Of a DNA stretch of 64,000 bases, positions 34,281 to 49,949 are shown piece by piece (positions within the stretch are counted from its first letter, which is position 1; each line of letters begins with the position of its first letter). Source of the stretch: Candidatus Microthrix parvicella Bio17-1 (GTDB lineage: Bacteria; Actinomycetota; Acidimicrobiia; Acidimicrobiales; Microtrichaceae); assembly GCF_000299415.1 (NCBI RefSeq), contig NZ_AMPG01000001.1:186001-250000 (forward strand), in the 5' to 3' direction. The notes below the pieces were generated by a model. That model saw only the letters and a list, made by a program, of their open reading frames with translations. It was not told where the DNA came from and did not search any database. The translations under genes were made by a program, and so were the position numbers.

Positions 34281-34324
34281 GGTCGCTCGGGGGTGTGTTG
34301 AGAGCGGCGCCGCAAGGATCCAAG

Positions 34325-34440
34325 TATCGGACCCTTGGTTGTCCCTGCGGACCACATCCCCACCGTGCGGTGGGATGGCACCTTGGGAGTCCGTCCCAGG
34401 TTGCCGGACCCGACGCCGCCGGATCGCTCGGAATGAAACG
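34325..34440 (-). promoter_or_regulatory. SAM riboswitch (SAM-I/SAM-IV clan) in the metX leader
   Basis: Read on the minus strand. The conserved core GGCAACC (34405-34399) and AAGGTGCCA (34384-34376) flank a P3 helix, ACCTGGGA...TCCCAAGGT. P1 can form from CATTCC (34435-34430) and GGGATG (34360-34355), P2 from GATCC/GGGTC, and P4 from CACC/GGTG around GCAC. J1/2 has GAGCG. The sequence after P1 (to about 34325) could form the extra pseudoknot arm of SAM-IV or an expression platform. SAM binding should turn off metX and the downstream PLP enzyme. Gene context fits exactly. Confidence 0.8.
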
Positions 34441-34527
34441 CCGACCATAGCCCAGCTGCGGCGCGGGCCCCCAGCACGTTCGAGACGGCGCTGGGTCACG
34501 GCACCTTTCAGGGCATAGCCTCTGCAA

Positions 34528-35037: not shown

Positions 35038-35054
35038 CGTCGCGGGAGGAGCGC

Positions 35055-35286
35055 CACATCGGACCAGGGCGGGGATCCCGACGCGTCTGGCCAGGGTGGC
35101 CATCAACAACAGATTCGATTCGGACACCAGGTTCGGATGGTCGAAGACGTCCTCGACCTCGTCCGGGTCGTACAAAGGTGCGCTGGCTGGAAGTGTCTTT
35201 CTGATCTGGGTTATGATTGAATCAACACCGTCATCCTCCTCTTCAGTATGACACTTTCTGCGTTTCAACAGCTCCGACCAAACCAC
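35055..35286 (-). pseudogene. Remnant of an IS1380-type transposase (N-terminal fragment)
   Basis: A minus-strand reading frame beginning about 35286 contains DPDEVEDVFDHPNLVS, then ESNLLLMATLARRVGIPALV. This resembles the N-terminus of IS1380-family DDE transposases (F-D-x-P-N-L-V-S ... LA-R-x-G). Similarity stops at about 35055, close to the end of the opposing membrane protein gene, and the DDE domain is absent. The frame continues only as antisense of that gene. The family call is from memory of the motif and needs a search. Confidence 0.45.
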
Positions 35287-35573
35287 CAGACCGATGAAAC
35301 CAACCTAAATTGCTCCGCCGGCAATCGCATTCACGGCCAGACGGGCCGCTGGGACGCTTCGGGACATGGCGATGCAAGGCACACACCGCGACGCCGTAAG
35401 CATTGCTCCTTCGTTCGCCCTTCTCGACCGACGTGGAATCAGCGGTGCATGTTCATGTACGGTACTGAGCGGCAACATAGCGGAGACCCGAAAGGCGCTC
35501 ACCTGCATGCCTATTGGAACGGACAATCATGTTCACGTGGTGACGGCTACGGCCCGAGCCAATCCCCTCCCAG
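35287..35573. other. Non-coding left edge of the accessory island
   Basis: 287 bp between the transposase remnant and the FtsK-like gene. No convincing gene, tRNA or terminator. The decamer TGTTCATGTA occurs in GTGCATGTTCATGTACGG (about 35441-35458) and again just inside the FtsK-like gene (CGTGTTCATGTAGACGG, about 35621-35637). The promoter of the large plus-strand operon must lie here. Confidence 0.5.
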
Positions 35574-38534
35574 ATGAGTCTCGGAGTCGCTGTGGTTAGC
35601 GGTTCGTCTGCAAGCCGGAGACGTGTTCATGTAGACGGCGCCGACAAGCGGCCGCCGCCTCCCGGCACTCAGGGGGACCTTCGGCAACCCCGACGCCAGA
35701 ACCCTCCCGATCCCGCCTCGCCCCCCATCGAACCTCGGGTCTTTGCCGAGAACCTGTCGGAGTCCGGTCGGATTCATCACCTCAATGAGGGTGAAAGGGT
35801 TGCGATCGAACGTGTGCAATCTGTGGCTCAACGTTTCAGGAGCCTGGAGTTGGCACTGCCCTTCATGCGGACTCAATCGGAGTCCGAGCACGCTAAGCGG
35901 GTTCAGCAGTTTCGATCCCTATCTAAATCTCAGCAGACTCAGCTGACTACCGAAGAGGAACGTTCACATGCGACGGCAAGCGAGGCCGCTCGATCGACGC
36001 TCAACCAAATCATCGATGATCTCGCTCCCGGGGCCGCCTCTGCACCATGGCCCAATCTCATCGATGCAGCTGACGGTAGTTTGCCCGCAAGGCACTTCCG
36101 GGTCGGCCAAATCTCATCGGGTCCTGCTCAGGGCCTCCCCGCACTGGTTCCGCTTGTCGACGGCGCCGGCTGGTTTGTAAGCGGGGACGAGGAGCAACGC
36201 AACGCAATGGTGTTGGGTGCCCTCACCCGTTTGGTGGCTCAGTGTCCCATCAAACATCTCTCCATCACGGTCTTTGATCCGCGACTCAGCGGGCAAGTGG
36301 GCCGCTTCGTGGGCCTTCGCCGGATCAGAGGGTCCTCATTTCCGACGCCGGCCACTGATCCCAACGAGTTCGCTATGTCCGTGGAACGAACAATCAGCCA
36401 GGCAGCCGTCAACGCTGAGCTTGCGGTTTCTTCCGGAGTCAGCAGCTTGGGCGACCTCTGGCGCAACGCAGACGTTCCTGAAGGAACACTGTCGGTCGTC
36501 GTAGTCCTCGACTACCCGTTCGGCATCGACGAACGCCTCCAGCAGCAGTTGGTTCGGGCTGCGAAGGTCGGAGGCCGCACGGGGGTCTCACTTCTCGTCG
36601 CCACCGATGAAGCGGTTACCCCTGCCGCCGAGGTCCACATCGATGATCTGCGATCCGCACTGGTCGACCTCCGAGTTCAGGGCGGGAACCTCACGGCGCC
36701 GCAGTTCAACGCCGGGGTATCGATCGAGATCGATCCGCGGCCGGACGATGAAGTCATTTCGTCGGTTGTGGAACTGTCGGCGATACGGTCGAGTTCGGTT
36801 GCGGGCCCACTCATCCCATTGATTGAGTTGCTGGAGGCGGACATCAAGTCCCCGTGGAAGCACTCGGCAGCGGCAGGCCTCGGTGTGGTGATCGGGCGCT
36901 CCGGTCGCGATCCGATGACCTTGGATCTCCGCACCGAAAACCCGCCCTTACCCAACCTGCTGATTGGAGGCGCCGTCGGGCAAGGCAAATCAAACTTGTT
37001 GCTGAGCATCATCTACGGGTTCGCCACGCGCTACTCCCCCGATGAACTCGAGCTTTACTTGCTTGACTTCAAACGCGGTTTGGAGTTTAAAAGATTCGAC
37101 GCAGACAGCCAGGGCGAGGCCTGGCTTCCCCACACCAAGGTCCTCGGCTTGGAGTCCAACCACGCGTTTGGTGTCGCTGTCCTCCAACACGTGCACGATG
37201 AGATGGAGCGGCGCTCAGATCTGTTCAAGTCGGTCAACGCGGGTTCGATCGACGAGTATCGAGGAACCACCAAGGCGCTCATGCCGCGAGTATTGCTCGT
37301 AATCGACGAGTTCCATGTGCTGTTCGAGGGCGACGAAGGCTACGTGGACACCTGCGTCGAACTCACCGAGGCATTAGCGAAGCAGGGCCGAGCGTACGGG
37401 ATCCACCTGCTCCTGGCTTCTCAGACTATCTCCGGCATTCGCGGGCTCGCCGTGAAGGGCGACGCAATCTTCGGACAGTTCCCCCTCCGCATGTCACTCA
37501 AGAACACGCCGGGCGAGTCGCAGGCGATCCTGAGCCAGGGAAACAAGGCGGCTTCCGAGCTCACCTATCGGGGCGAAGCGATCCTCAACAAGAACTTTGG
37601 CGGCAATCCCGAGCTCGACAACATTCGGGGCACCATCGCTTTCGCAGAACCATCCGCCATGGCGCAACTGCAACGAGACCTCTGGACCCTCCGACACGGA
37701 GAACGCCCAGTCCTGTTCATGGGGAACGACTTCGCTGAACTCGATCCGACATCGCTCGGGGAGCACCGTCGACTTTCTGCTCTCCAGGACTCGGCCGACG
37801 GCCTTTCAATCTGGTTAGGCCGTCCCGTAGCGGTCTCGGCTGAACCCAGGGTCCATCACATGGCGCCCGACGCCGACCAAGCGGTAGCCATCGTCGGAGC
37901 CGACGAGACCCTCGCTCGCGCTGCGCTTTTGACGATGATTATGACCGCCTGTCACTCCCTGGCAGGAGGGGGCACTTTGACCGTTCTCGACGGGAACGGC
38001 GAGACGGGTCAGGCCTGGTTCGAGCAAGCGAACGACTACGCAACCGAGTGTGGCGTACCCGTCAATGTACTCGCCCAGCAAGACATTGCAGCGTTTCTTC
38101 GTGAGGCCGTTGCTCAACGAATGGACAGCGGTGCATCGGGGCATGATCTCATCGTCGGCCTCGGTCTTCAACGAGTGCGCGGAATGGATGAAGAGGTCCA
38201 AGGCGACGATGGGAACGAGGACGAGTATGTCCCGCCGGGCCCGTCAGGGCGGACGGCGCTAAGACGGTTGGCCGAGGAAGGGGCCATCCATGGCATGTAC
38301 TTGATCGGTTGGTGGCACAATCTACGAACCCTTGAGGTAGACCTCTCCTACGAGCCAGGTGTGGCACTGTTCGTCACCGCAGATCTTGGCCGCGATGACC
38401 TGAAATCAATCGCAGGCCCTTCCGTCTCCCGTGTCGACGGCCGTCCTCGCCTCGGCATTCATGACCGATCGGGAGAGGGCCTGGAGACCGTGGTGCCCTA
38501 CGCCGACCCCAACGCGTCGGGGGTGCCCGCATGA
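35574..38534 (+). CDS. Soluble FtsK/SpoIIIE-type ATPase of the accessory system
   Basis: 986 aa. Residues 1-60 are Pro/Arg-rich and 60-150 predicted coiled coil. A middle part (about 180-440) looks like a degenerate NTPase or accessory fold (IKHLSITVFDPRLSGQVGRF). The FtsK/SpoIIIE core follows: Walker A GGAVGQGKSNLL (about 464-475), LELYLLDFKRGLEFKRF, Walker B RVLLVIDEFHVLF (about 572-584), IHLLLASQTISG (about 610) and MSLKNTPGESQAIL. A second, degenerate ATPase-like repeat occupies 740-950. No membrane helix or FHA domain, unlike EccC/EssC of type VII secretion. It probably powers substrate or DNA movement for the linked proteins. It overlaps the next gene by 4 bases. Confidence 0.8.
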   Translation: MSLGVAVVSGSSASRRRVHVDGADKRPPPPGTQGDLRQPRRQNPPDPASPPIEPRVFAENLSESGRIHHLNEGERVAIERVQSVAQRFRSLELALPFMRTQSESEHAKRVQQFRSLSKSQQTQLTTEEERSHATASEAARSTLNQIIDDLAPGAASAPWPNLIDAADGSLPARHFRVGQISSGPAQGLPALVPLVDGAGWFVSGDEEQRNAMVLGALTRLVAQCPIKHLSITVFDPRLSGQVGRFVGLRRIRGSSFPTPATDPNEFAMSVERTISQAAVNAELAVSSGVSSLGDLWRNADVPEGTLSVVVVLDYPFGIDERLQQQLVRAAKVGGRTGVSLLVATDEAVTPAAEVHIDDLRSALVDLRVQGGNLTAPQFNAGVSIEIDPRPDDEVISSVVELSAIRSSSVAGPLIPLIELLEADIKSPWKHSAAAGLGVVIGRSGRDPMTLDLRTENPPLPNLLIGGAVGQGKSNLLLSIIYGFATRYSPDELELYLLDFKRGLEFKRFDADSQGEAWLPHTKVLGLESNHAFGVAVLQHVHDEMERRSDLFKSVNAGSIDEYRGTTKALMPRVLLVIDEFHVLFEGDEGYVDTCVELTEALAKQGRAYGIHLLLASQTISGIRGLAVKGDAIFGQFPLRMSLKNTPGESQAILSQGNKAASELTYRGEAILNKNFGGNPELDNIRGTIAFAEPSAMAQLQRDLWTLRHGERPVLFMGNDFAELDPTSLGEHRRLSALQDSADGLSIWLGRPVAVSAEPRVHHMAPDADQAVAIVGADETLARAALLTMIMTACHSLAGGGTLTVLDGNGETGQAWFEQANDYATECGVPVNVLAQQDIAAFLREAVAQRMDSGASGHDLIVGLGLQRVRGMDEEVQGDDGNEDEYVPPGPSGRTALRRLAEEGAIHGMYLIGWWHNLRTLEVDLSYEPGVALFVTADLGRDDLKSIAGPSVSRVDGRPRLGIHDRSGEGLETVVPYADPNASGVPA

Positions 38535-39067
38535 CGTCGACCAACGCAGATTACGACCGGTACGTCAGCGAGGTACATGCCACGGTCGAACGCGAAGCAA
38601 ACCACAGCCGCCTACTCCAGGCGGCCCGAGAAGCCGGGACCGCCGAGGTCGACGCCGCTCTCAAGGATCAACGCACGGCGGCGGCCGCCCTCAAGAACCT
38701 AGATTCCTCCCTCAGGCACCTTCGACCTTCCGTGAACCAGTTGGTCGCTCGCGCTTCGGTTTCCCTCAACGCGACCACCGAGCCACTGAGCTTCTCAGGC
38801 CCGGACCAGTTTGAGCGTGAAGTGAAGGGATTGACGGCCGAACTCCGCGGTGCGGAACAGTCATGGCAGTGGGTGGAGAAAGCACGTCGCGAGAACGCCC
38901 AACAAGTCGCTAACACGGTCGGCTCTTCCGATTCGGTTCAGCTTTCGATTGGTGGCACATCCGTCGCTGAACCACCGGGCGATGCCTCCTGGAATCGCCG
39001 CCTGGTCATCGGCCTCAGCGCCGCCGTGGCTGTCGCCTTGGCCGTCGTCCTCATCTTGCTTACCTAG
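38531..39067 (+). CDS. Tail-anchored coiled-coil protein
   Basis: 178 aa. Two long helices (about 5-60 and 95-130: VEREANHSRLLQAAREAGTA, EREVKGLTAELRGAEQSW), a Ser/Gly linker and a single C-terminal membrane segment LVIGLSAAVAVALAVVLILL ending one residue before the stop. The topology is cytoplasmic coiled coil with a tail anchor. ATGA overlap with the FtsK-like gene implies coupled translation, so it may dock that soluble ATPase to the membrane (inference). No family recognised. Confidence 0.72.
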   Translation: MTSTNADYDRYVSEVHATVEREANHSRLLQAAREAGTAEVDAALKDQRTAAAALKNLDSSLRHLRPSVNQLVARASVSLNATTEPLSFSGPDQFEREVKGLTAELRGAEQSWQWVEKARRENAQQVANTVGSSDSVQLSIGGTSVAEPPGDASWNRRLVIGLSAAVAVALAVVLILLT

Positions 39068-39105
39068 TTACTACGAACTACTTTGCTCATCAGGAAGGAG
39101 GGACC

Positions 39106-39567
39106 TTGCTCCATCGTTTCAGGCAGCCTCAGAACACGACACACTTGACAAGGTCCATACCTCCTCACCAGCAGACATCGCGCGTCGCCACAACCAACCA
39201 GTTCGCCATCACGCAACGAAGCCGCCCGAGGAGCGCCCAACTGGTCGACGCGATCCTTCGCATCGACTCGACCGTTGACCCCGCAGGGCAGCGGGAACTG
39301 ATGCAGTGGATTCGCGAGGCCTACGACGACCGTGGCGGCGGAGAGCTGGTCGGCCTGTTCAGCAAATGCTACTTAGGGCACCCGTATGTTGATCATCGCA
39401 TGACCATCGTTGGTTCAATCATCGAACATTTCACCCACGACCAGGTCGTCCCACCACCGTTCACGGCCGCACGACCTTTGGTCAGATCAGACGCCTACCT
39501 GTTTGTCGAGATCTATTCAGATGGCCAGGTCATACCCATTCGTTCTGACGGATCGCAAGTCGCCTAG
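39106..39567 (+). CDS. Small protein with possible effector-associated-domain-like helical fold
   Basis: 153 aa from TTG 39106, preceded by GGAAGGAGGG. The first 40 residues look disordered. Residues about 43-110 (QLVDAILRIDSTVDPAGQRE, ..GGGELVGLFSKCYLGHPYVD) recall the L-V-x-A-L-L ... D-P-x-G-R ... C-x2-H-P pattern of effector-associated domain 2 adaptors in actinobacterial conflict systems. The C-terminus is a short beta-like piece (DAYLFVEIYSDGQVIPI). The similarity is by eye and weak; otherwise function unknown. Second small gene after the ATPase. Confidence 0.6.
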   Translation: MLHRFRQPQNTTHLTRSIPPHQQTSRVATTNQFAITQRSRPRSAQLVDAILRIDSTVDPAGQRELMQWIREAYDDRGGGELVGLFSKCYLGHPYVDHRMTIVGSIIEHFTHDQVVPPPFTAARPLVRSDAYLFVEIYSDGQVIPIRSDGSQVA

Positions 39568-39586
39568 CAACCATGAAGGGTTTCCC

Positions 39587-41344
39587 ATGGCAGAGTACGT
39601 TGACCTCTCCCCCATCACGAGGGCAATCGGCAACCTCGAGTCCAACCTGTCGAGTCGAATCGACGGCGTTGGAACAGAGGTCGGCCAGGTCCGCGGCGAC
39701 CTTCGGCTCGCCTCCGACGAGCTCCGTCAGCTCAAGGCAGACTTTGAGGAGTTCACACAGACCGCCGCAAGGGTCGCCAACGTTCAGCGGTCTGAGACGA
39801 AAGTTGCAGCACTCCGCGCCGACCTCGACCGCCAGTTTGGCCACTACACCAAGGTCCGCCTCACATCGGTTGGCATACTTCAGAGCTTCGACGTAGGCAA
39901 CGTCTCCAACGACACCGTCTCATCGGTGAGTGAGGAGTTGATGATCCAGACTCCGAGGTACTGGCTGGCACCAGCGTTGGTGGCGCTGGCAGCCTGGTCG
40001 AAGGACGATCCGGAGATGGCCGAGAAGTCCGTTCAGGAAACATTCTCACGGGACAAGAACAAGGCCAGCCTCTTCTTCGCTCTCGTGCTGCGCCGTCAGG
40101 GTCGCATCGAGTCGTCGGTCAGGTGGCTCCGCCACTACCTACTGACGCTGGACCCGAGTTCGTTGACTCGCGAGTTTGCGGTGATCCTGGAGGCAGCGTC
40201 GTACGACGCCTTTGGCACCACAGGTCGCGACGTGGTGTCCGAGTCGATGGGGCGCTGGTGCTCCGAGCTCCGCGACCGGAAGGACATCGTTGAGGCCCAG
40301 GTCGAACAATGGGCGAGCGAGATCGGCGTACAACGCATGCAGTTCTCCGCCGGCGGCGAATATGCGGCCTTGGCCCACCTCACGCCGGAATGGAAGACCC
40401 TCGAGTTCCAGCTGGAGATGGCCTCCGCCCTGCCTGCCACGATCGAGAAGTACGACGCCATTGCGAAGCACGACGCGTCGATTCCCAGTTTCCTGGAGGA
40501 CCTCCTCGACGACATACTCGATCAGTTGGTGACCGAATATGACGAGGAGGAGTTGCCCCTCAAGCGTGAGGTGGTGTTCCACGACGCTGTAATCGAGGAG
40601 GACGGCGACCTGACCCGCGCTCGAGAACGAGCTGACGAGCTGAATAAGGCATTGGAGGAGACGTCTGACGTCGTGTCGATGCAAACGCAAGCCGCCATCA
40701 ACCCCGACACCCTCGGTGTCAGCACACAGACCCAACGAATCGCGATCGGCGTCGGGCAAGAGGACTTCCGAGTCGCGGTCGGTCGGTATTGCGTCTACTA
40801 CCGGTCATCGGCTGTCGATGAGGTCAGCCTTTCCTTCACCGGAGATCACTCCAACTACGCCCAAACCTACAGCTTTCAGGGCTGCACCATCGAAACCTCC
40901 GAACAGGAGGATGCAGGCGTCGCTCGCCTGGCGGCCACCTGGCAGTCAACCTTTGCGGAGTACATCAAGACGATCTCGTTCAAGAACAGCTGGTACGTCG
41001 CGCCGGCAATGATCGGCTTCCTCGTCGGCCTCATCGGCGGGGCGATCCTCGGCGCAGTTATCGGGTTCCCCATCATTGGGATTCTTCTCGGCTGGATCGC
41101 AGCCGGCGGCGCCGTGTTCTTCCTCGGACAACAAAAGCGCCAGAAGTGCGATGACGCCGTGGCGGCCGCGTGGCGCCAGCAGGAGGCTGCCGTCGAGCAC
41201 AGCGTCTCGATGTATCGCGACGCCATGGCCCAGTTCGTCGACCTACAACTGACCTACGGAGAACTCGACTCCAACGAGGACGGCCTCCTCCAAATCATCG
41301 ACACGTGGCCAACCGCCACCCGAACCAAGAAAATGGTGGCGTAG
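39587..41344 (+). CDS. Coiled-coil protein with glycine-zipper membrane hairpin
   Basis: 585 aa from ATG 39587 with AAGGG seven bases ahead; a longer frame upstream overlaps the previous gene out of frame. Residues 5-90 form a coiled coil (VGTEVGQVRGDLRLASDELR). About 110-300 is a helical, repeat-like domain with LAPALVALAAWSKDDPEMAE and ALVLRRQGRIESSVRWLRHY, reminiscent of TPR spacing. About 430-465 is an amphipathic piece. About 468-513 is a hydrophobic hairpin with many small residues (MIGFLVGLIGGAILGAVIG, FPIIGILLGWIAAGGAVFF). A helical C-terminus follows. GxxxG-rich hairpins favour oligomeric membrane assemblies, so this is the best candidate for a membrane channel or scaffold of the system. 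Confidence 0.72.
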   Translation: MAEYVDLSPITRAIGNLESNLSSRIDGVGTEVGQVRGDLRLASDELRQLKADFEEFTQTAARVANVQRSETKVAALRADLDRQFGHYTKVRLTSVGILQSFDVGNVSNDTVSSVSEELMIQTPRYWLAPALVALAAWSKDDPEMAEKSVQETFSRDKNKASLFFALVLRRQGRIESSVRWLRHYLLTLDPSSLTREFAVILEAASYDAFGTTGRDVVSESMGRWCSELRDRKDIVEAQVEQWASEIGVQRMQFSAGGEYAALAHLTPEWKTLEFQLEMASALPATIEKYDAIAKHDASIPSFLEDLLDDILDQLVTEYDEEELPLKREVVFHDAVIEEDGDLTRARERADELNKALEETSDVVSMQTQAAINPDTLGVSTQTQRIAIGVGQEDFRVAVGRYCVYYRSSAVDEVSLSFTGDHSNYAQTYSFQGCTIETSEQEDAGVARLAATWQSTFAEYIKTISFKNSWYVAPAMIGFLVGLIGGAILGAVIGFPIIGILLGWIAAGGAVFFLGQQKRQKCDDAVAAAWRQQEAAVEHSVSMYRDAMAQFVDLQLTYGELDSNEDGLLQIIDTWPTATRTKKMVA

Positions 41345-41348
41345 TCCA

Positions 41349-41636
41349 ATGACCAGCTCAAGCACCTCGGAAGACCCCAGCGAGATCGATCTGACCAACG
41401 CTGCTGCGCCCCCCGACGCCTCACCACTGATCCGGCGGACGAGGAGTGTAGGGAAGTTCCAGCGCAGGCCAGAAGCTGCAGGAACCGGCTCCAAGGACGG
41501 CGTCGTAGTTGCCCGAGGGGTCCTCGCCATGCGAGCCAAGCAGGGCAAATCGCAGACTTCCCGCGAGCGATTGATCGCAGGGAATCTGCCAGACTGGGAG
41601 CCATTGCCGCCGGGAGAACTCACCGTCCAGCGATGA
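41349..41636 (+). CDS. Small hydrophilic protein of the accessory operon
   Basis: 95 aa. Acidic Ser/Thr-rich N-terminus, then a basic middle (LIRRTRSVGKFQRRPEA), a short hydrophobic VVVARGVLAMRAKQGKSQTS and DWEPLPPGELTVQR at the end. No family recognised. It starts 5 bp after the previous stop and ends 12 bp before the next start, so cotranscription is nearly certain. Confidence 0.6.
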   Translation: MTSSSTSEDPSEIDLTNAAAPPDASPLIRRTRSVGKFQRRPEAAGTGSKDGVVVARGVLAMRAKQGKSQTSRERLIAGNLPDWEPLPPGELTVQR

Positions 41637-41648
41637 ATGTAACCTGAG

Positions 41649-42260
41649 ATGACTGGCTCCGAACTTGTCGGCAGAACTCCATACGAGACCTGGGTGCTGA
41701 CCTTGCGAGCTTGGGGCAATGACCCGATGACCCCGCTCGACCACCTGCCGTCCCTCGCCCTTGAGACCTTCACCCCCGATACCTACCAGCGCCTCTTCAA
41801 CCACCTGCGCCAAGCTTTGCAGTCCGTCACCACCCAGTGGAGCGATGATCTCGGCAAGACACTGCGGTTGAGCCAGGACCGATTCGCGCTTGGACACGAC
41901 CTGGTGCAGCTCAGGACCAGGCTCACTCGACGGGTGCAACTGGTGTCGCATCCATCGCTGCCTGCCGAGGCACGGGATTCATTCACCAAACAGACCGCCG
42001 AGGACATTGCCAGAAGCCAACAGCAGATCGTGGATCACATCCAGCGACAGGCCAATGAAGGGCACCTCAGCAGGACCGAGGCCGAGGGGATGCTCGATGT
42101 GGTCCGTGAGCACTCCTTCGAAGCCGTCATGGCATTCGCAGCAAACTCTGCTGGTCAGCGGGTAGTCGCCGCTCCGCTCAGGGAAGTCAATCCAACCGAA
42201 GCGCCCGGCTCTAAACGCTGGCGCAAGATACGGCCGTTCACGGCCCGAGGAGACGAGTAG
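41649..42260 (+). CDS. Helical protein of unknown function
   Basis: 203 aa, soluble and mostly helical (YQRLFNHLRQALQSVTTQWS, VQLRTRLTRRVQLVSHPSL, FTKQTAEDIARSQQQIVDHI, EAEGMLDVVREHSFEAVMAF). One conserved-looking patch, GRTPYETWVLTLRAWG, is at the N-terminus. No catalytic motif. Its TAG stop shares one base with the GTG start of the AAA+ gene, so the two are translationally coupled and may interact; a substrate-chaperone role is possible but has no direct support. Confidence 0.62.
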   Translation: MTGSELVGRTPYETWVLTLRAWGNDPMTPLDHLPSLALETFTPDTYQRLFNHLRQALQSVTTQWSDDLGKTLRLSQDRFALGHDLVQLRTRLTRRVQLVSHPSLPAEARDSFTKQTAEDIARSQQQIVDHIQRQANEGHLSRTEAEGMLDVVREHSFEAVMAFAANSAGQRVVAAPLREVNPTEAPGSKRWRKIRPFTARGDE

Positions 42261-43810
42261 TGCCGGACAAGGCGACAGTTGTCGACAGCGTCGAGCGTTA
42301 CCTCAAGGCCCGGGTCCCGCTCATCGTGATCCAGTCCTATGAGCCGAACCGGGTCATGGAAGTTCTGAGTGAGTGCGCGAGCACGCTTAGCACCATGCAG
42401 TTCTATGAGCACTCCCGAACCGAGGGTGTTCGGGATCTCCTCTCCAGCCAATCGGTGTCAGACGAGACTTCCTTGGTTGTCGCACTTGAGCATGCTCGGA
42501 CAACCTTCAAGGCCCGAACGAACGTCAACTTCATCTTCACCGACGTCGACGAGCTGGACCAGGAGACCTCCCAGTCGCGTCACTTTGCCGAGATGGTCCG
42601 ATTGGCCGAATCCCGCAGCTGCAGCATCATCGTCGTCACGACCAAACCGGTGTGGCCCGGTCTGTCTCGACTCGGCATGACCGAACGCCTCGACCTGCCG
42701 ACTATGGACGAGATGGCCGAGTCCCTTAGCGACTTCATCGAGGGCAACCGCGGACCAGTCACGGTGGAGTGGGACTACGACGACCTGCGACGAGCTGCCG
42801 AGATCCTGTCGGGCATCACCGAAATGGAGGCCATCAACGTTCTGGCAAGCATGATGGCGAGGGGTCAACTCAATAAGGACGACATGCCAGAGCTGTCCCG
42901 ATACAAGGATCGCATCTTCGGTGACCTTTCGGGTATCGAGCGAGTGCAGCTCAAGGAAGGGGCTAACAAGGTAGGAGGTCTACACACACTTCGGGAGTGG
43001 CTGGCGACCAAGCAGTCGCTCATTACGGCCGATCTCTCGCAGACCACCTTTGCCCCGCCGAAGGGCATGCTGCTCGTCGGCGTCCCCGGGTGCGGCAAGT
43101 CGCTCTCGGCAAAAGCGGTTGCGCAGGAATGGATGCTGCCGCTGTATCGGCTGGACATGTCGTCGATCATGGGCATGTACGTCGGGCAATCGGAAAGTCG
43201 GCTGCGGGAAGCACTCGAGATGGCCGACCGTGTGGCGCCTTGCGTGCTCTGGATCGATGAGATCGAAAAAGCACTCGCCTCGGGCCCTGGCGACGGCGGC
43301 ACCACCCGCCGCTTGATCGGCCAGTTCCTCTTCTGGCTTCAGGAGTCCACCTCCAAGGTGTTCATCGTGGCGACGGCCAACGAGGTCCAGTCACTCCCCC
43401 CCGAGCTGCTCCGCAAGGGACGATTCGACGAGATCTTCTTCGTGGATCTCCCTGATCCGGCAGACCGCGAAGAGATACTCGACCTCTACTTCACCCATCA
43501 CTTCACTCAAGCACTGTCGCCCTCGCTCATCCAGGAGCTGGTGACCCTGTCGGATGGATTCTCCGGGAGCGACATCGACGCCGTCGTCAATGAACTGGCC
43601 CAGAAGATGTTCGGGCGTGGGACCGGCGCGCTGCCCAGCGACGACGAGATCCGACTGCATTTCCGTAACGTGATTCCCTACAGCCAAACCAACGCCGAGG
43701 ATGTCGCCGCCATCCGGGCGTGGGGCCAGCATCGTTGCCTCCCCGCAGGCAGCCTGGCGTTGCCGGAGAGCGACGGTCAGAGTCAACCCCGCCGAGTCGT
43801 GCTGACGTAG
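42260..43810 (+). CDS. Ycf46-like AAA+ ATPase
   Basis: 516 aa, GTG start at 42260. Residues 1-200 form the degenerate N-terminal RecA/AAA-like domain of the Ycf46 type ([44 protein letters not shown]). The active AAA module follows: Walker [19 protein letters not shown] (about 271-288), pore-loop region [10 protein letters not shown], Walker [13 protein letters not shown] (about 327-338), sensor 1 VATANEV and arginine-finger [10 protein letters not shown] (about 383). The C-terminal lid has [15 protein letters not shown]. It probably remodels protein complexes. Last gene of the seven-gene plus-strand operon; its stop is 6 bp from the opposing operon. Confidence 0.85.
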
Positions 43811-43816
43811 TCAGTC

Positions 43817-44434
43817 CTACTTCGGAGGTGGTGACCCGTGATCGCCGTATGGGGGGTCCTTTGGGGGCCCCTTCCACTTCGTTTCTTCGTTGCTGTTTTT
43901 CTGTACATCATTCAGCTTTTCGTGATCATCCGAGATCCCAGCCGCCTCCATATTGGCGTCCCGGTCCTGATACCAACTGCGGGCCCATCCCACAGCCCCT
44001 TTGGGTGCCGGCCGCTCAATCCTCAGCTCGTGGCCCTGTTCGGGAGTTGGTGCTGGTTGGTACCGGTTCTGGTTGGGGAACGGCGGGTTGAGGGCCGCAT
44101 GCGCGACAACGTTTGCGGTGCCGATAGCCGCGATTCCAAACTTTCCGGCCTTCTCCCATCCCGACGAACCGCCCCCCTTTGCAAGGCGGGCGGCGAAAGC
44201 ACTCGCGCTCCTGTTGAACTCCTCAAGGTCAGAGGTGGCTGCCCGAGCACCAGCCTGCGCCGCTTGAAGCCCAGCATGTACCGCCTTGACGCCTTGCACT
44301 CCCTTCGCATCGGGAATCTTGTTGGCCAAGTGCGACGCCGATTTCGCAGCGGCCGAAACCACCTCGAGGAATGGGCTCCCGGAGTCACCAAGCGCACGAA
44401 CTGAATCGGCGAGCTTCTCCAGATCTGATGCCAT
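43817..44434 (-). CDS. Candidate secreted substrate / effector of the accessory system
   Basis: 205 aa from ATG 44434 (MASDLEKLADS), with AAGGTAGGG upstream. Residues 1-105 are two or three Ala-rich helices like WXG100/LXG carrier regions (VSAAAKSASHLANKI, VKAVHAGLQAAQAGARAATS). A Gly/Ala-rich hydrophobic patch GKFGIAAIGTANVVAHAAL follows, then a Pro/Lys-rich polar tail with SWYQDRDANME, which contains a YxxxD pattern as in type VII export signals, and a PPKDPPYGDHGSPPPK end. No enzymatic motif or Cys. Third gene of the minus-strand operon after the WXG100-like pair; the order suits a carrier-plus-substrate unit. Confidence 0.6.
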   Translation of the reverse strand: MASDLEKLADSVRALGDSGSPFLEVVSAAAKSASHLANKIPDAKGVQGVKAVHAGLQAAQAGARAATSDLEEFNRSASAFAARLAKGGGSSGWEKAGKFGIAAIGTANVVAHAALNPPFPNQNRYQPAPTPEQGHELRIERPAPKGAVGWARSWYQDRDANMEAAGISDDHEKLNDVQKNSNEETKWKGPPKDPPYGDHGSPPPK

Positions 44435-44444
44435 GTCCCTACCT

Positions 44445-44735
44445 TCAGCGAGCTTTGCGAGCGTGCTTCTGATGCTGCTTGTCCTGAGCGGCGAGCTCGC
44501 CGGCCACGTCCTTGGCTGCCGCCGCGACCTGCCTGAATCCTGCGGCAGAGGAGCGGATACTGTCAGAGCTGGATCCGACAAGGGCGATCATCTTTCGATC
44601 GTCTTGAGTTGCGGTGCCCTTGATGGCTGCGGACGTCTTGGACTCAAGACTCGACAGCCTCTTTGCTAGGTCATCCAGCGCGGCGGCTTGCTTCGACGCG
44701 TCCCTGGCGATCTGGCGGAACTCAGCGGCAGACAT
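44445..44735 (-). CDS. WXG100-sized helical protein A (no Trp)
   Basis: 96 aa. Helix (FRQIARDASKQAAALDDLAK and on), central turn SAAIKGTATQDDRK at about 35-48, then a second helix (IRSSAAGFRQVAAAAKDVAG) and a basic tail KQHQKHARKAR. Size and helix-turn-helix plan are those of EsxA/B-type proteins, but I-K-G replaces W-x-G. It aligns with the upstream 86-aa gene product around AI-x-G-[ST], suggesting a duplicated pair that may form a heterodimer. 9-10 bp separate it from each neighbour. Confidence 0.65.
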   Translation of the reverse strand: MSAAEFRQIARDASKQAAALDDLAKRLSSLESKTSAAIKGTATQDDRKMIALVGSSSDSIRSSAAGFRQVAAAAKDVAGELAAQDKQHQKHARKAR

Positions 44736-44741
44736 CAGCTG

Positions 44742-45002
44742 TCAGAGGGATTGACCATACGACTGGGCGATCCTGGCGACGTTCTGAAGCTGAGACGTCG
44801 CCTGCTTGACCGCGGTGGATGCCTGTTGCAAAGCCGACATGATTTCAGCATCCTTGCGCTGCGAACTCCCTGCGATCGCCTGCTGCACCGCCGCCTGGTG
44901 CTTAGACAGCTCTCGTTCGTATCCCGCCAGACTTCCAGCCGTCTTCTTGGAGGAGGCCGCAAGTTGGTTCACCGTGCTCTTGAGTTGCTTCAGTTGTGAC
45001 AT
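44742..45002 (-). CDS. WXG100-sized helical protein B (no Trp)
   Basis: 86 aa from ATG 45002, with AAGGA seven bases ahead. Helix 1 (LKQLKSTVNQLAASSKKTAG...ELSKHQAAV), turn QAIAGSSQRKDAE at about 40-52, helix 2 (MSALQQASTAVKQATSQLQN). Rich in Gln/Ser/Ala, with no Cys or Trp. Paralogous in plan to the 96-aa product that follows. First gene of the operon, so likely the most abundant product. Confidence 0.65.
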   Translation of the reverse strand: MSQLKQLKSTVNQLAASSKKTAGSLAGYERELSKHQAAVQQAIAGSSQRKDAEIMSALQQASTAVKQATSQLQNVARIAQSYGQSL

Positions 45003-45312
45003 TCTCGATCCTTCTTGATCTCATTTGCGACGGATTTCGGACGGCAGACGCAGGCGGAATGGCTGCCCCAAAGACCGGCGCCCAACCCTGCCCTGTTGTT
45101 GCCACACCCCGCAGGCCTTGCGCCAGCGATCGCGCTGCATCGACCTTCTGCAAGTGTCGACGAATCCTTAACCGAATTTGACAAGGAACACCTCTTTTAG
45201 TTTAGAGCAATCTTCGAACAGTTACAAAGCTCGAATAGTCATCCTCACTCTACTTACGTTCGAGACGCTTGCCACAATCGATCTCCAAGCTACGGCGGGG
45301 CGTGGAGAGGTG
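45003..45312. other. Intergenic region upstream of the WXG100-like operon
   Basis: 310 bp between the start of the 86-aa gene and the stop of the next minus-strand gene. Visibly less GC-rich than its surroundings around 45170-45260 (for example CTCTTTTAGTTTAGAGCAATC). It must contain the operon promoter; no clear -35/-10 pair, terminator or small gene could be picked out. Confidence 0.5.
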
Positions 45313-46155
45313 TTACAAGTTCGCTGGATACATACGCTGATCAGGTCCCCGGGCCTCGAAATCGAAGTCATCGCTCAGCCGAAGACCAAAACACGCGTAG
45401 TCCTCAGTGAGCCCCTGGCTTCGACACCAAGAGGCGCCTGCGCGAGCGTCGCTGAACCCACCTCTGTGCACAACCGCCACGGTGCCTCCCTTAGTCGACC
45501 GGAATTCGTCTCCCCGAATCCCGACAAAGTCACCTCCATACTCGCTCGAGTACTGATCGACCTGCTCTTGAACGGTCTCCGCCCACGACGGGTCATCCGC
45601 GTTCGCGACCTGGCTCCAGACGACGGCGACTGCCTCGCCATAAATTTCGTCGCGTTCCATATAGATCGACGCCGAGTCTTGCGACGTGCCTGACGATTCA
45701 TCCAGCGACGGCTGAGGCGACGAACCGTCGGGGGAACCAAGGCTGGACTCGTCAGCGGCTGCTGAATCAAGGTTCCGTCCGGTCGGTCCGTCCGAATCAA
45801 GCGAGTCGCCGCTGTCACTCGAATCGCCCAACCCCCCAGCCGAATCATCTGACTGCACGACTTCATCACTCGTGTCCTCAGAACTGGCCCTTCCCCCAAG
45901 CGCAACCGCAAGCACACCTCCTCCTGCCAAGAGTAGGCCTACAATTGACATGCCGATCAGCGTGGTCTTCGAGTTTGAGGTTCTAGAACCAGCGACGCTC
46001 GTCACGGATCCCAGGCTGATGCTTGGCCGGGTATCACCAGCGTGTGCAGGTTGGGCGCTGGGCTGTTGCAATACCGGAGACGGTGGAGCAGGGAGGTCTC
46101 GGCTCCGTGGAGGGGCCGGCAGGTCGGGCGAAGGTGGACGAACTGGTTCTGTCAT
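45313..46155 (-). CDS. Single-pass membrane protein with acidic linker and extracytoplasmic domain
   Basis: 280 aa; AGGAG precedes ATG 46155. Residues 1-60 are a Pro/Ser-rich cytoplasmic part. TTLIGMSIVGLLLAGGGVLAVALGG (about 64-88) is the membrane helix. Residues 90-155 are a Ser/Asp-rich linker (SDDSAGGLGDSSDSGDSLDS). The C-terminal 120 residues form a small domain with SIYMERDEIYGEAVAVVWSQ, GGDFVGIRGDEFRSTKGGTV and two Cys (ASWCRSQ, DYACFGL) that could form a disulfide. This layout is common in surface sensors and in the tails of actinobacterial Ser/Thr kinases. Divergent from the amidase gene, and probably works with it outside the membrane. Confidence 0.68.
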   Translation of the reverse strand: MTEPVRPPSPDLPAPPRSRDLPAPPSPVLQQPSAQPAHAGDTRPSISLGSVTSVAGSRTSNSKTTLIGMSIVGLLLAGGGVLAVALGGRASSEDTSDEVVQSDDSAGGLGDSSDSGDSLDSDGPTGRNLDSAAADESSLGSPDGSSPQPSLDESSGTSQDSASIYMERDEIYGEAVAVVWSQVANADDPSWAETVQEQVDQYSSEYGGDFVGIRGDEFRSTKGGTVAVVHRGGFSDARAGASWCRSQGLTEDYACFGLRLSDDFDFEARGPDQRMYPANL

Positions 46156-46394
46156 GGTTCAACTCCTGGGATAGCCCACGGCGTCGAGGTGCTGGACCGC
46201 TGACGAATCCAGCACGGCGAACCACGATGGGTGACGAGAACGTCGCTCATCGTAGCTCTGGAAGGTGTGGCAAACCAGAAATCGGTCTAGGATCTGAGTT
46301 CTGACCATCCACAGCCTAGTCACGGACTGAAGTAGTACGCTCATGGTTGATTCCTGTTGGGCTGATGGACAGGGTGCAAGGACGAGCCAACGGC

Positions 46395-48143
46395 ATGTGC
46401 GGAATTCGGGACTGCGATCCCATGGGAAGTATCACAACCAGTCGACGCCGGTTCTTGGGCGCGACCGCAGTAGTCCCGTTGGCTGCCACCCACGGCCTCA
46501 CCAAGCGTTCTGAGGTGACACACAGGCCTGGGCCTGGCGCGTTGAACGCCCCACAGATACGACGACGACGGGATTGGGCGCCCGACCTCCCCATCAAAGC
46601 CCCCATCGAGGCTGAGCAGGTCAGATTTCTCCTCGTCCACCACACCTCCGAGCCGGGTTCCGACTATCAGCCCGAGGACGTCGAGGGTATCTTACGTCAG
46701 ATTTACAGCTTCCACACCGGCGCGGAGAAGGACTGGCCCGACATCGCGTACAACTTCTTCGTCGACAAGTTCGGAACAATCTGGGAGGGCAGGACGGGAA
46801 GTGTCGATGGTCCAATTCGGGGCTCGGCAACCGGCGGAAACCAGGGATTCAGTCAGTTGTGCTGTTTCTTGGGCGACTTCGAAGCCGAGCCGCCGCCCGA
46901 AGCAGCGGTGTCATCGATGATCACATTGCTGGCCTGGCTTGCGGACCGATACAAGGTCGACGTCACTCCGGGAGCCACGACCACGTTCGCCTCCAGGGGC
47001 TCCAACCTTCACCCGCCAGGTAAGGAGGTGATCACTGGAACGATCTCGACCCACCGACAGATGTCGCAGACGGCTTGTCCGGGGACCGCGTGCCACCAGA
47101 TGGTGGTCGACCAGTTCCAAGGGCTGGTCGCAGCTCAGATCCCTCCCGCCGCTCCCCCGGGCACCACCGAGCCGACGACGCCGCCAACAACAAGTTCTCC
47201 CGGAGTCGTTGCCACGCCGCCGTCCGACTCAACGACCGTGCTCGAGGCCGGTCGTAATCGCGCTGAGCAGGCCGGGGCCCCACGTCCCACCGGCTCCAGA
47301 ACCGACTCCGGGAGCGGGCCGCTGCCGATCATCCTCGGCTCTGGAGCCGCCGCGGTCGCAGGCGCGCTGGCCGTAGGGGCCTGGTCCAATACGCGTTCGA
47401 GAGCCATCGCGCCGGCCGTCTCCGGCGAACCGGGCACTGCTGGGCTCCCCACGGCAACCTCCAACCCAACCAATGCGATCGCCCCGTCAGCATCGCGATT
47501 CGTTCCTTCGGTAAACGAGCCGGTTGGCAGTGAACCAAACCGTAACGTGACGACAGTTGGTTCACCGGCCGTCTGGTGGCCAAACACGACATCGTCCGGC
47601 ACAGCAGGCGCAGCGACTGCCAACGAGACGCTCGTCTTCTGGCTCGTGGGGTCCGCCTACTCACAGCCGGCTCGAACCCGCATCGAATCCTCGATGCGGG
47701 CCTCGCTCGACCGGTTCGGCGCCACGGGCTGGGTTAGCCCCGGACCGTGGTTTACCCAGATGCTCTCCACCATTTTGCCTGGCCTCACGCATCCGCCGGG
47801 GAGTGGCCTCCTGCTTGGGCTCGCGACGAGCGGACAGTGCCTCGCACTCAGCGCCGGCAACGCACGCGTCGACATTCCGGAGGTCACCGGCCGCCATAAG
47901 CCTCGGCCTCCGTTGCCGGGAATCGACCCTCGTTCCGGCATGGCCCACCGCTGGAACATCCCGGTCGGTGTCACGTGGTTGGCCGGCTGGCTGGGAGGAC
48001 CTGGGACGCTGTCCGTTGGCCCCGAGATCGTCGCAGCGAACCTCGCTCAGGGACGCGAGCAGGATCCCGAGCTCTTGGGGAGCGCCGAGGGGTACCTGGG
48101 CGTGCGCCTCGTTCCGCCAGCCAACAAGCCGGAGTCTCCCTGA
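46395..48143 (+). CDS. Tat-exported PGRP/amidase_2 peptidoglycan hydrolase with membrane segment and C-terminal domain
   Basis: 582 aa from ATG 46395; starts at 46347 (TTG), 46365 or 46422 are also in frame. A twin-arginine signal TSRRRFLGATAVVPLAA is near the N-terminus. The amidase domain (about 60-245) has all zinc ligands of active PGRP/T7-lysozyme amidases: His in FLLVHHTSEPG (about 80), His in STHRQMSQ and Cys in TACPG (about 225), plus the catalytic Tyr in DIAYNFFVDKFG. A Pro/Thr linker, a membrane helix LPIILGSGAAAVAGALAVGAW (about 310-330) and about 250 residues of unrecognised domain follow (ETLVFWLVGSAYSQPARTRI, GSGLLLGLATSGQCLALS). It should cleave MurNAc-L-Ala bonds locally. It could open peptidoglycan for the secretion-like system. 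Confidence 0.82.
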   Translation: MCGIRDCDPMGSITTSRRRFLGATAVVPLAATHGLTKRSEVTHRPGPGALNAPQIRRRRDWAPDLPIKAPIEAEQVRFLLVHHTSEPGSDYQPEDVEGILRQIYSFHTGAEKDWPDIAYNFFVDKFGTIWEGRTGSVDGPIRGSATGGNQGFSQLCCFLGDFEAEPPPEAAVSSMITLLAWLADRYKVDVTPGATTTFASRGSNLHPPGKEVITGTISTHRQMSQTACPGTACHQMVVDQFQGLVAAQIPPAAPPGTTEPTTPPTTSSPGVVATPPSDSTTVLEAGRNRAEQAGAPRPTGSRTDSGSGPLPIILGSGAAAVAGALAVGAWSNTRSRAIAPAVSGEPGTAGLPTATSNPTNAIAPSASRFVPSVNEPVGSEPNRNVTTVGSPAVWWPNTTSSGTAGAATANETLVFWLVGSAYSQPARTRIESSMRASLDRFGATGWVSPGPWFTQMLSTILPGLTHPPGSGLLLGLATSGQCLALSAGNARVDIPEVTGRHKPRPPLPGIDPRSGMAHRWNIPVGVTWLAGWLGGPGTLSVGPEIVAANLAQGREQDPELLGSAEGYLGVRLVPPANKPESP

Positions 48144-49949
48144 TCAGCAGCCGTCGAACCATGACAGCACAGCGTCACCACCATCGATACCTGATGCCGC
48201 GACCATCAGTTCGTGCACCCAGGTCAGCGTTGCCGACTCGATGCCGTCGCCAAGGTCACAGCGTCCGGCAAGCAGACCGGCGGCCTCATCCCACGGGCCT
48301 TGATGGACCGGGAGGTCGAGGTCGCCGAGCGCCCTGGTGGACACCCGGACGCCTGCGCGTCCCATACCACTGCCCGCCATGGCAGACACCAGGCTCAGTG
48401 TGCTGACCGGCGAACACAGCACAGCCAACAGATGGCCCAGTGTGATGCCCTTGGGCACTCCGGCGATCACCGGGGTCAGGCCGATGGCCCGCCCCTGGCC
48501 GTCGGGCGCCGCCTCGATCACTCGGGTCTGACTGGCGACGAGCACTTTGGGCACCAACTGGCGCTTCGCCCAGGCCGTGGTCGGTGCATCGTCGGCTGCC
48601 AGCGCTCCCAGGTCAACCACCGGCGACTCCCAACGCCGCTTCCCAAACCTCATCGACTTCCCGCCCCACCGACAAACGCCCGGATCGATCAGCCCGGAGG
48701 ACACCAGCGCCGCGAATCCGGCCGGCACCTCCGGGCGCCCCTCCCGCTCGGTCAGGGTGGCTTCCTGGGCCAGTTCCAACATGGCGTAGTACTCATCGCG
48801 AAACCCTGCGCTGAACCTCACGACCTCCCCCAACCGACCCAGCGGCGTGCCGGATGTCCGGCGGACCGCTGGGAGCCCCTCGGCGGCCGCCACCAGTGCA
48901 CCCCAACTCTCGCTGGAGAGGGCCCCAACCGGAACCATCCCGAGCTCCATTTCGACGGTCGAGCCGCCCCTCACCGGAACCTCCCCGACCGGTGCAGCGG
49001 CGAAGCCACCCAGCACCGGCGCCCAGACCTCAACCGCAGCACCGAAGCCCCCATCACCCACCCAGGCGGCGGCCAGAGGCATTCGTTTGGTCACCGTCTG
49101 GCGCACGCCCGCCGCATCCCGGGCGGCCAGCACCGAACGGGGCTGGATCAAACACACCACGCCTGTGTCCGCAACCAGTTCGGTTGCAGCGAGAAGAAAC
49201 AGCGCCGCAGTATCGGTATAGGCGCCCACCTCGGCCCCGAATCGTTCCGTCAGTGATGAGCGACGGCGGGCGTCATGGCGGGTTCCCGCCCTGAGCTGAG
49301 CCAGAAACGGCGGGTTGCCAACAACCCACCCCACCGGCGCACCACCGATCGCCCGAGCCAGGACATCGGGTTGGGTCAGCGCGTCGCAGCACACCAGGGT
49401 CGGTTCGTCCGATGACAACCCTGAGGCACGGGCACGAGCGACGGCTTCGTCGGCTCCGGGCGCATCGGCCTCGTCGAGCGCCCACCGGGCCAGGGCGGCG
49501 CGGGCCACCACCAGCACATCGGGATCCAGGTCGGCACCGACCAGCCGGCTCAGGATCCCCCCCACCGAGGTCGATCGGCCATCAGCGCCCGCCTCAACCC
49601 ACAGATGCCGGGCAACCGCCACCAGAAACGCACCGGCGCCGCACGCCGGATCGAGCACCACCTCGCCGGTCCGGAAGCGCTCGCCAACGCGGATTGACGC
49701 CGCAAAGTTCACCAGGCCCGACGCGAGCGCCGGACTGGTGAAATGCACGCCGGCCGAACGCCGAACCGCATCGGCCAGCATCAACTCGTACAGGGGTCCG
49801 AGCAGGTCACAAATCGCCGCACCGGGCGGAGGGTCCAGCGCCGCAGCAGCGCCCCCGGCCAGGTGGTCGGTCACGTCACACCACGACGGCAACTCGCTTG
49901 GGGCACGACCGTGTACGGCCAAGGTGGCGACCGCCGACAGCGGCGACAC
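48144..49949 (-). CDS. Orphan N6-adenine DNA methyltransferase
   Basis: 601 aa from GTG 49949. SAM-binding motif I is DPACGAGAFLVAV (100-112); catalytic motif IV is VVGNPPFLAQL (NPPF at 212-215); AGVHFTSPALASGLVNFAA precedes them. This is the N6-adenine (Eco57I/N-6_Mtase-like) class. The C-terminal half (about 330-600: GKSMRFGKRRWESP, LVPKVLVASQTRVIE) resembles target-recognition regions. No nuclease or specificity gene is adjacent. The frame stays open upstream to a CTG (50018-50016) overlapping the helicase stop, encoding LNVLADPTARWLTRTASDF, so translation may begin there (624 aa). Confidence 0.82.
   Translation of the reverse strand: MSPLSAVATLAVHGRAPSELPSWCDVTDHLAGGAAAALDPPPGAAICDLLGPLYELMLADAVRRSAGVHFTSPALASGLVNFAASIRVGERFRTGEVVLDPACGAGAFLVAVARHLWVEAGADGRSTSVGGILSRLVGADLDPDVLVVARAALARWALDEADAPGADEAVARARASGLSSDEPTLVCCDALTQPDVLARAIGGAPVGWVVGNPPFLAQLRAGTRHDARRRSSLTERFGAEVGAYTDTAALFLLAATELVADTGVVCLIQPRSVLAARDAAGVRQTVTKRMPLAAAWVGDGGFGAAVEVWAPVLGGFAAAPVGEVPVRGGSTVEMELGMVPVGALSSESWGALVAAAEGLPAVRRTSGTPLGRLGEVVRFSAGFRDEYYAMLELAQEATLTEREGRPEVPAGFAALVSSGLIDPGVCRWGGKSMRFGKRRWESPVVDLGALAADDAPTTAWAKRQLVPKVLVASQTRVIEAAPDGQGRAIGLTPVIAGVPKGITLGHLLAVLCSPVSTLSLVSAMAGSGMGRAGVRVSTRALGDLDLPVHQGPWDEAAGLLAGRCDLGDGIESATLTWVHELMVAASGIDGGDAVLSWFDGC

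Follow-up and report, generated by a model that had tools for sequence, protein, structure and literature searches.

The 64,000-nucleotide stretch of Candidatus Microthrix parvicella Bio17-1 analysed here (the window) carries an accessory island that is compound, with two modules joined: Module 1, consisting of an FtsK-type ATPase (A), a tail-anchored coiled coil (B), two small helical partners (I and H) and a carrier (G); and Module 2, a five-gene cassette (C2, C, D, E and F). The island is, with somewhat better than even probability, a conflict system that exports a carrier-borne toxin through a soluble pump anchored in trans, with handling by AAA+ and tetratricopeptide-repeat (TPR) proteins and local cleavage of the wall. 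The gene set, its linkage, the kinship of A, the insertion of the island, and the toxin tips and immunity genes of some relatives are directly shown.

Organization of the island

All genes described in an earlier, sequence-only reading of this DNA are open frames and in place. The plus-strand operon A-B-C2-C-D-E-F (35574-43810) converges on the minus-strand operon I-H-G (45002-43817), and the island also holds the single-pass protein J (minus strand) and the amidase K (plus strand). A and B overlap by 4 bases, E and F by 1 base. The plus operon was thus correctly read as uniting an FtsK/SpoIIIE ATPase, a tail-anchored coiled coil, a glycine-zipper protein and an AAA+ ATPase, but that gene list was incomplete: C2 had been missed, and D and E are also conserved. 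The features are:

34557-48143, no strand: accessory island between metX and a DNA methyltransferase-like gene (flank adjacency, G+C dip)
32988-34556, minus strand: metX, left flank of the island
48144-49949, minus strand: DNA methyltransferase-like gene, right flank of the island
35574-38534, plus strand: A, soluble EssC/EccC-like FtsK ATPase, 986 residues (Pfam FtsK_SpoIIIE, 7e-19)
38531-39067, plus strand: B, coiled coil with C-terminal membrane anchor (residues 158-176), 178 residues (hydropathy)
39106-39567, plus strand: C2, cassette gene 1, about 153 residues (TTG start behind GGAAGGAGG)
39587-41344, plus strand: C, cassette gene 2, 585 residues (alignments, structure model)
41349-41636, plus strand: D, cassette gene 3, small, with a conserved C-terminal P-x-W tail (alignment)
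41649-42260, plus strand: E, cassette gene 4, about 200 residues (alignment)
42260-43810, plus strand: F, cassette gene 5, CDC48/Ycf46-like AAA+ ATPase, 516 residues (Pfam AAA, 6e-34)
43817-44434, minus strand: G, candidate carrier/effector with helical N-terminus and variable tail (alignment)
44445-44735, minus strand: H, helical partner 1, central turn KGTATQDD, no WxG (alignment)
44742-45002, minus strand: I, helical partner 2, central turn GSSQRKD, C-terminal Y-x-x-[SG]-[LMI] (alignment)
45313-46155, minus strand: J, protein with a single membrane segment (66-84) and a long C-terminal part beyond it (hydropathy)
46347-48143, plus strand: K, Amidase_2 peptidoglycan amidase with a twin-arginine motif (Pfam Amidase_2, 6e-12)

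The two flanking genes are adjacent in 10/10 relatives of the same family fetched for an empty-site check (10 of 33 family genomes used), which makes the 13.6 kb that separates them in the window an insertion. The methyltransferase-like gene is matched in 33/33 family genomes, the organism's own included. G+C is 0.60-0.62 in 2-kb windows across 35,001-47,000 and 0.63-0.70 in the remainder of the 64 kb. No direct repeats of at least 18 bases were found at the island edges. A small membrane protein gene (window 34528-35037) overlaps metX, finds no match in the regions of ten relatives, and may be part of the insertion.

An apparent further copy, on a 13,483-base contig of genome G040 (L033, the same as L044), is 99.98% identical to window 34826-48308 end to end and is binned with a genome of another family. 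A true second genome copy was rejected; the contig is most likely a mis-binned piece of the same organism in a public metagenome-assembled genome (MAG) and, as a likely binning artefact, was left out of every count.

Joining of the two modules

A pattern scan of the genome collection detected relatives of C in 184 stretches; 80 of these were kept, and dropping the duplicate L044 leaves 79 loci. Genes of unannotated loci were predicted with a simple purpose-made gene caller. In eight of the 79, A and B stand directly before C2, gene to gene and in the same orientation: L045 (Actinomycetota MAG), L046 and L048 (Mycobacterium), L050 (Salinibacterium MAG), L052 (Actinomyces dentalis), L056 (Microbacteriaceae), L059 (Nesterenkonia) and L060 (Microbacterium, contig ends early). 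A and B overlap or lie within about 12 bases in these joined loci. Seven of the eight extend far enough downstream, and all seven have the I/H pair. Where enough sequence flanks the cassette on either side (52 loci), A, B and I occur together in six and are all absent from 46 (Fisher 5e-8, kinship uncorrected).

The proposed gene set therefore recurs as linked homologues, and none of the outcomes that the sequence-only reading had named as refuting it was encountered. The sequence-only reading had placed it in Acidimicrobiia and called it minimal; neither description holds, as the set also occurs in Mycobacterium, Actinomyces, Microbacteriaceae and Nesterenkonia, and the island is a compound of two modules.

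In a tree of the ATPase central domain (48 rows, midpoint root; three duplicate rows, L005, L006 and L010, removed), the nine ATPases that stand with a cassette form a single clade (support 100/98). In a tree of C (36 chosen rows; L041 and L042 missing from the profile alignment), the joined loci are confined to a single actinobacterial subclade (17 members, 96/97) that also contains unjoined ones. This pattern fits either one join followed by losses, or exchange.

A also occurs without the cassette in L028, L034, L128 and L129. The Rhodococcus plasmid locus L028 has Hsp70, GrpE and DnaJ-TPR genes instead, and L034 has Hsp70 and GrpE; L128 and L129 have neither the cassette nor Hsp70/GrpE chaperone genes. 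These arrangements suggest one pump type with alternative chaperone modules.

The ATPase and its tail-anchored partner

A contains an N-terminal coiled coil (66-150, helical in the structure model), a degenerate ATPase domain, an intact central domain with Walker A GGAVGQGKS and Walker B LLVIDE, and a degenerate C-terminal domain. The Pfam FtsK_SpoIIIE match spans residues 440-617. In the aligned family, the central GGxxGxGKSN and IDEF motifs are present in 9/9 sequences, and the outer domains are without such a motif by eye. The sequence-only reading was right that the ATPase has no membrane helix: a hydropathy scan finds no hydrophobic segment in A, nor in 17/17 relatives.

Both profile and structural comparisons favor a placement of A nearer EccC/EssC than FtsK or TcpA. 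The top NCBIfam matches are EccCa (4e-26), EssC (2e-20) and EccCb (3e-17), all far under their cut-offs; the EccCa match scores 91.9 bits (cut-off 509), as compared to 12.3 bits (E 0.02) for the FtsK DNA translocase model. The structure model is moderate (mean predicted local distance difference test score, pLDDT, 70.9; predicted template-modelling score 0.42). In Foldseek its best match is EccC (4nh0; E 1.1e-25 over 952 alignment columns), followed by EssC (5e-15), FtsK (6e-10) and the conjugation protein TcpA (3e-8).

The ATPase tree keeps A apart from both groups. Twenty-six EccC/EssC-like rows, which include an annotated EssC (L130), two EssC-like plasmid proteins and the EccC-like protein of the organism's own genome, split from A and its relatives with support of 100/98. 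The A side of this split also holds the organism's own FtsK (L003) and the long plasmid row L131, together with Caballeronia L031 and Helicobacter L032; the fork gathering A's relatives alone has support of 90/82 and includes the long branch L036. In this tree, A is a family of its own outside the EccC/EssC clade.

Relatives of A reach Rhodococcus, Deinococcus, Caballeronia and Helicobacter, several of them on plasmids. Among 295 other genomes sampled in the phylum, three have an A relative at E <= 1e-40, two without a cassette within 20 kb and one on a 5-kb contig. Viral contigs yielded one distant relative. In L034, a multi-helix membrane protein with a PemK/MazF-like domain (11756-13243; Pfam 4.5e-8) is encoded directly after the A-family ATPase. 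Elsewhere in the organism's own genome, contig C6 (L002) encodes an EccC-like protein outside the island (open frame of 1,493 codons), and the whole genome gives no WXG100 match above cut-off. PADLOC returned only distant ATPase similarities for the island proteins scanned (SspH, mad8, HerA, IetA, TRIP13).

The B profile is matched beside A in 8/8 loci with A and cassette, and the hydrophobic end is aligned in seven of them. B has no match among plasmid records.

The five-gene cassette

Module 2 is widespread as a separate unit, found in Actinomycetota, Bacillota, Fusobacteriota and Proteobacteria. Where sequence sufficed, linkage to C was observed for F in 67/70 loci, E in 67/70, D in 66/70 and C2 in 55/57; C2 lies before C in 40 loci and after it in 32. 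The records from Comamonas, Komagataeibacter and Fusobacterium have all five genes clustered, with C2 last in Fusobacterium, and the 25-kb stretches around these cassettes yielded no A relative. Identity to the homologues in these three genera is 27-31% for C2 and 33-34% for C; F is 42-49% identical to three cassette homologues of other phyla.

C has a coiled coil (32-103), TPR-like helical repeats (83-210) and a C-terminal hydrophobic glycine-zipper hairpin, and is modelled as nearly all-helical (pLDDT 86.7). Its TPR matches reach Z of about 9-10, a level common for helical repeats. Matches to the alpha-pore-forming toxins SmhB/AhlB are weak (E >= 0.006) and were not used. F has one intact AAA domain (270-396), similar to that of many AAA proteins, the anti-phage ATPase IetA being one of them.

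The cassette's neighbors differ between groups. In the Streptomyces group (L062-L086, L119), a caspase-type gene upstream of C2 faces the cassette in 21/25 loci with room, and Pfam Peptidase_C14 is matched in 20 of the 61 flank proteins scanned. Caspase and cassette are possibly a separate conflict system. In the Bacillota group, zinc ribbons are the commonest flank family (11/71), and SH3_3, AMIN, Amidase_3 and beta-lactamase-like domains occur in 1-3 cases each amid many unrelated families, mostly housekeeping ones. The proteins surveyed were hand-chosen, 61 of 107 candidates in the Streptomyces group and 71 of 207 in the Bacillota group. Downstream of the cassette, L045:17446-18741 and L047:10588-11148 appear TIR-domain-like by eye.

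None of the family libraries recognised the cassette as a named system; Pfam was searched with all five proteins, NCBIfam and PADLOC with C, E and F. A literature search that reached only a minority of subscription papers turned up no account of either the cassette or the joined island. The cassette is apparently undescribed.

Helical partners and the carrier

H and I had been described as two WXG100-sized proteins. The size stands, but the central turn has no WxG in H, I or their aligned relatives, and neither protein has a Pfam match above any cut-off. The size of about 100 residues and the central glycine turn would be compatible with a WXG100 hairpin. The central glycine turns of the two families are alike (consensus GGSxQRKD for I, GGTASGxD for H), their profiles cross-match, and I ends in Y-x-x-[SG]-[LMI] in 9/9 aligned sequences. 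Against Pfam WXG100, H scores 12.1 bits (cut-off 27.3) and its family has 2/8 members at E <= 1 (best 0.062); the I family has 6/9 (best 0.0042), no better than unrelated helical families. In the PDB, the H profile finds EsxA at E 0.29, ranked under designed coiled coils; such sequence matches, mostly designed coiled coils, were set aside as composition, not kinship, and I gave nothing convincing.

Alignment of the G family reveals a conserved helical N-terminus and a variable C-terminus. In the window's G, no toxin domain is recognised and no match is found among plasmid records. The YxxxD motif, noted in G, the candidate substrate of the sequence-only reading, is unconserved in eight aligned relatives and was rejected as an export signal.

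Recognisable tips occur in relatives. The L056 tip matches Pfam papain-fold toxin 1 (E 1.6e-6, above cut-off; no NCBIfam match), and a 105-residue gene lies behind G. The L028 tip also ends an E. coli RHS core protein (NCBIfam) and, by eye, a Rhizobium haemagglutinin-like-repeat protein and a Streptomyces pre-toxin-like frame; three of five other records were looked at. L028, L156 and L158 have homologous genes after the tip (all pairs at E 4e-10 or better); in the E. coli RHS case a Sel1-repeat gene comes next, not homologous to the L028 neighbor. A search of 72,556 plasmid records with the L050 tip gave a single match (E 2e-4), in a gene directly after the A relative in L029, and no immunity gene is seen in L050. 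Neither the L028 nor the L050 G has a PDB match of note. A carrier with an exchangeable tip and an adjacent immunity gene is a pattern that fits L028 and L056, and partly L050. Toxins borne by relatives of G are most likely exported (or released).

Other toxin-related genes were observed near ATPases of this family. In Helicobacter L032, the ATPase is immediately preceded by genes of the WHH/colicin-type nuclease and SMI1/KNR4 kinds. Coiled-coil proteins neighboring the ATPase (L029:15676-16620, L030:14748-15728, L035:5903-6889, L129:8883-9899) resemble, by eye, a second carrier family with paired cysteines; that of L029 has the same terminal domain as the L050 G.

Membrane protein and amidase

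J is possibly a sensor or wall contact; over a short stretch it weakly resembles a protein of L048 (E 0.002). K likely starts at 46422, and its twin-arginine translocation (TAT) model match scores 14.6 bits, under the cut-off of 16.7. K is 29% identical over 180 columns to an amidase in the Mycobacterium locus L048 (E 8e-11). The amidase and a beta-lactamase-like gene of L129 resemble those of L048 by eye.

Proposed mechanism and alternatives

From these parts we infer a hexamer, docking, unfolding and export, with roles for J and K. The scheme would involve: provision by B of a membrane anchor in trans for soluble A; pairing of I and H with the helical N-terminus of G; and docking of the conserved I C-terminal tail onto A. 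F and C could then unfold the cargo or pass it on at the membrane, as a split counterpart of EccA, which has both TPR and AAA+ parts. A hexamer of A, held by B, would pump the cargo outward, and amidase K and surface protein J may open the wall locally. The C-terminus of G would be, in some relatives, an exchangeable toxin domain.

A more specific form of this proposal is tentative and falls short of even probability: that the island is an actinobacterial type VII-like exporter, its soluble EssC-type pump anchored in trans and fed by a split, EccA-like pair of F and C. Equally tentative is its extension, in which bacteria also plug the F and C device into caspases and other effectors. If true, the cassette would represent an unfolding module, associated with the membrane and as yet undescribed, that serves bacterial conflict systems in general.

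Several observations weigh against export by such a system. Most cassettes stand without A (71/79 loci, 55 of them with 4.5 kb or more of upstream sequence) and could therefore serve a purpose other than export. H and I lie outside WXG100 by sequence. Six of nine G proteins are without a recognised toxin tip (window, L045, L046, L048, L052 and L059; the L048 and L052 tips judged from alignment only), and in the window just 6 bases separate G from the end of F, leaving no immunity gene there. The membrane end of B is not seen in L060, where the match covers 130/185 profile positions, and no tail-anchored neighbor was found beside A in L029, L031, L032, L035 or L128. J has no relatives by profile in the loci scanned, and K-like amidases occur in only 2/8 joined loci (L046 and L048, by phmmer), with that of L129 recognised by eye. 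Finally, with a midpoint root and the organism's own FtsK on the A side, the tree alone cannot choose between EccC/EssC and FtsK; the nearest neighbor of A thus rests on profiles and structure.

The strongest alternative is an intracellular suicide or anti-phage system, in which the FtsK motor and the helical proteins keep the toxin inactive in the cytoplasm and release it upon infection, without export. Although unlikely, this is a real contender because relatives of both modules keep anti-phage company: related ATPase operons occur in CoCoNuT and TerY-P anti-phage loci (PMC11090510), L031 is CoCoNuT-like by annotation, most Streptomyces-group cassettes face a caspase, and the F AAA domain has the IetA likeness noted above. 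The absence of a membrane helix from A is also consistent with a cytoplasmic role. However, the L028 tip is shared with an RHS protein and other exported-type carriers and has homologous neighbor genes, and the amidase and the membrane-anchored B suggest the envelope.

It is improbable that two independent systems merely stand side by side, with an FtsK/toxin module next to an envelope-stress or caspase-type cassette. Each module is indeed found alone, as described above, but the gene-to-gene join in a single orientation, with A and B overlapping or nearly so, recurs in eight loci, the joined ATPases are one clade, and the joined cassettes share one C subclade, mixed with unjoined ones. DNA translocation or plasmid transfer, suggested by the FtsK family domain of A and the plasmid location of several relatives, is scarcely credible and was rejected, as profile scores and structure favor EccC/EssC over FtsK and library scans of the island recognised no relaxase or transfer gene.

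Comparison with known systems

The proposed exporter resembles the type VII secretion systems (T7SSs), T7SSa/ESX, T7SSb and T7SSc-j, in its EccC/EssC-type ATPase and in the helical partners beside toxin substrates (PMC11217815). In those systems the ATPase is membrane-bound, whereas A has no transmembrane helix; they also have a WXG100 protein, except T7SSi, in which none was found (PMC11217815). The wall hydrolase EssH of T7SSb (PMC13059805) is a precedent for the island amidase, as are the three small partners of the T7SSb toxin EsaD (PMC10653861) for the small partners. ESX has the AAA+ protein EccA, and the island has the AAA+ protein F. NCBIfam scans of ten island proteins (all except C2 and D) gave no match to EccB, EccD, EsaA, EssA or EssB. 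EccB had no match, with control genomes also silent; EccD reached only 19.4 bits, under cut-off and outside the island, with control genomes again silent.

Two extensions of Type III-A CoCoNuT systems offer parallels (PMC11090510). The EssC-like extension is similar to A in its N-terminal coiled coil, lack of a transmembrane helix and one active of three ATPase domains; it has two WXG100-type partners, as compared to two helical partners without WxG in the island. The other, separate extension places a CDC48-like AAA+ protein (SpoVK) beside a glycine-zipper protein. These extensions are alternatives between VWA genes, whereas the island joins comparable parts in one operon without a CoCoNuT; neither the Type III-A core (CnuB/McrB-CnuC) nor VWA genes are among the island genes scanned. 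The proteins differ as well. The CoCoNuT glycine-zipper protein has a PD-(D/E)xK fold, whereas C is modelled as nearly all-helical with TPR-like repeats, with no PD-(D/E)xK match among the matches listed; and F ends soon after its AAA domain, with no room for the leucine-rich repeat and barrel domains of the CoCoNuT AAA+ protein. On how the CoCoNuT-associated homologues would get to the membrane, the same authors write that "a different mechanism appears likely" (PMC11090510).

The NTP-dependent conflict systems of Kaur 2020 (PMC7159879) and the island's relatives both have AAA+/Hsp70 chaperones, caspases and variable effectors. The main text of that paper is without CDC48, SpoVK or a glycine zipper, and the island is without a recognised MoxR-vWA pair.

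The "mobile T7SS" combines solo WXG proteins with a YueA-like ATPase in whose three FtsK/HerA domains activity is confined to the middle one (PMC3482391). A likewise keeps just the central of its three FtsK domains intact, and the two systems also have in common small helical partners and an association with polymorphic toxins; the HNH-type nuclease and DnaK homologue of the Helicobacter version count as a further likeness. They differ in that H and I lack WxG, and in that the available passages of PMC3482391 name no tail-anchored partner, AAA+/TPR cassette or amidase. In Helicobacter pylori, this ATPase class has also been reported under the name of a WXG100 secretion system (PMC4978471).

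The soluble EssC-like ATPase class is therefore already known (PMC3482391, PMC4978471, PMC11090510), and the suggestion of a separate, unseen lineage is not sustained. What is new is: an actinobacterial clade in which a five-gene cassette is joined to the motor, a tail-anchored coiled coil and a pair of helical proteins without WxG; the cassette as a separate unit across four phyla, with a caspase beside most Streptomyces-group copies; and relatives of G with polymorphic-toxin tips, one common to an RHS protein, with homologous immunity genes. The cassette keeps its gene content in distant phyla. Type VII systems known so far use membrane-bound EccC/EssC. With a tail-anchored partner in the joined clade and real toxin tips tied to some members, the related ATPase family without membrane helices suggests, in a testable way, how soluble motors could arrive at the membrane.

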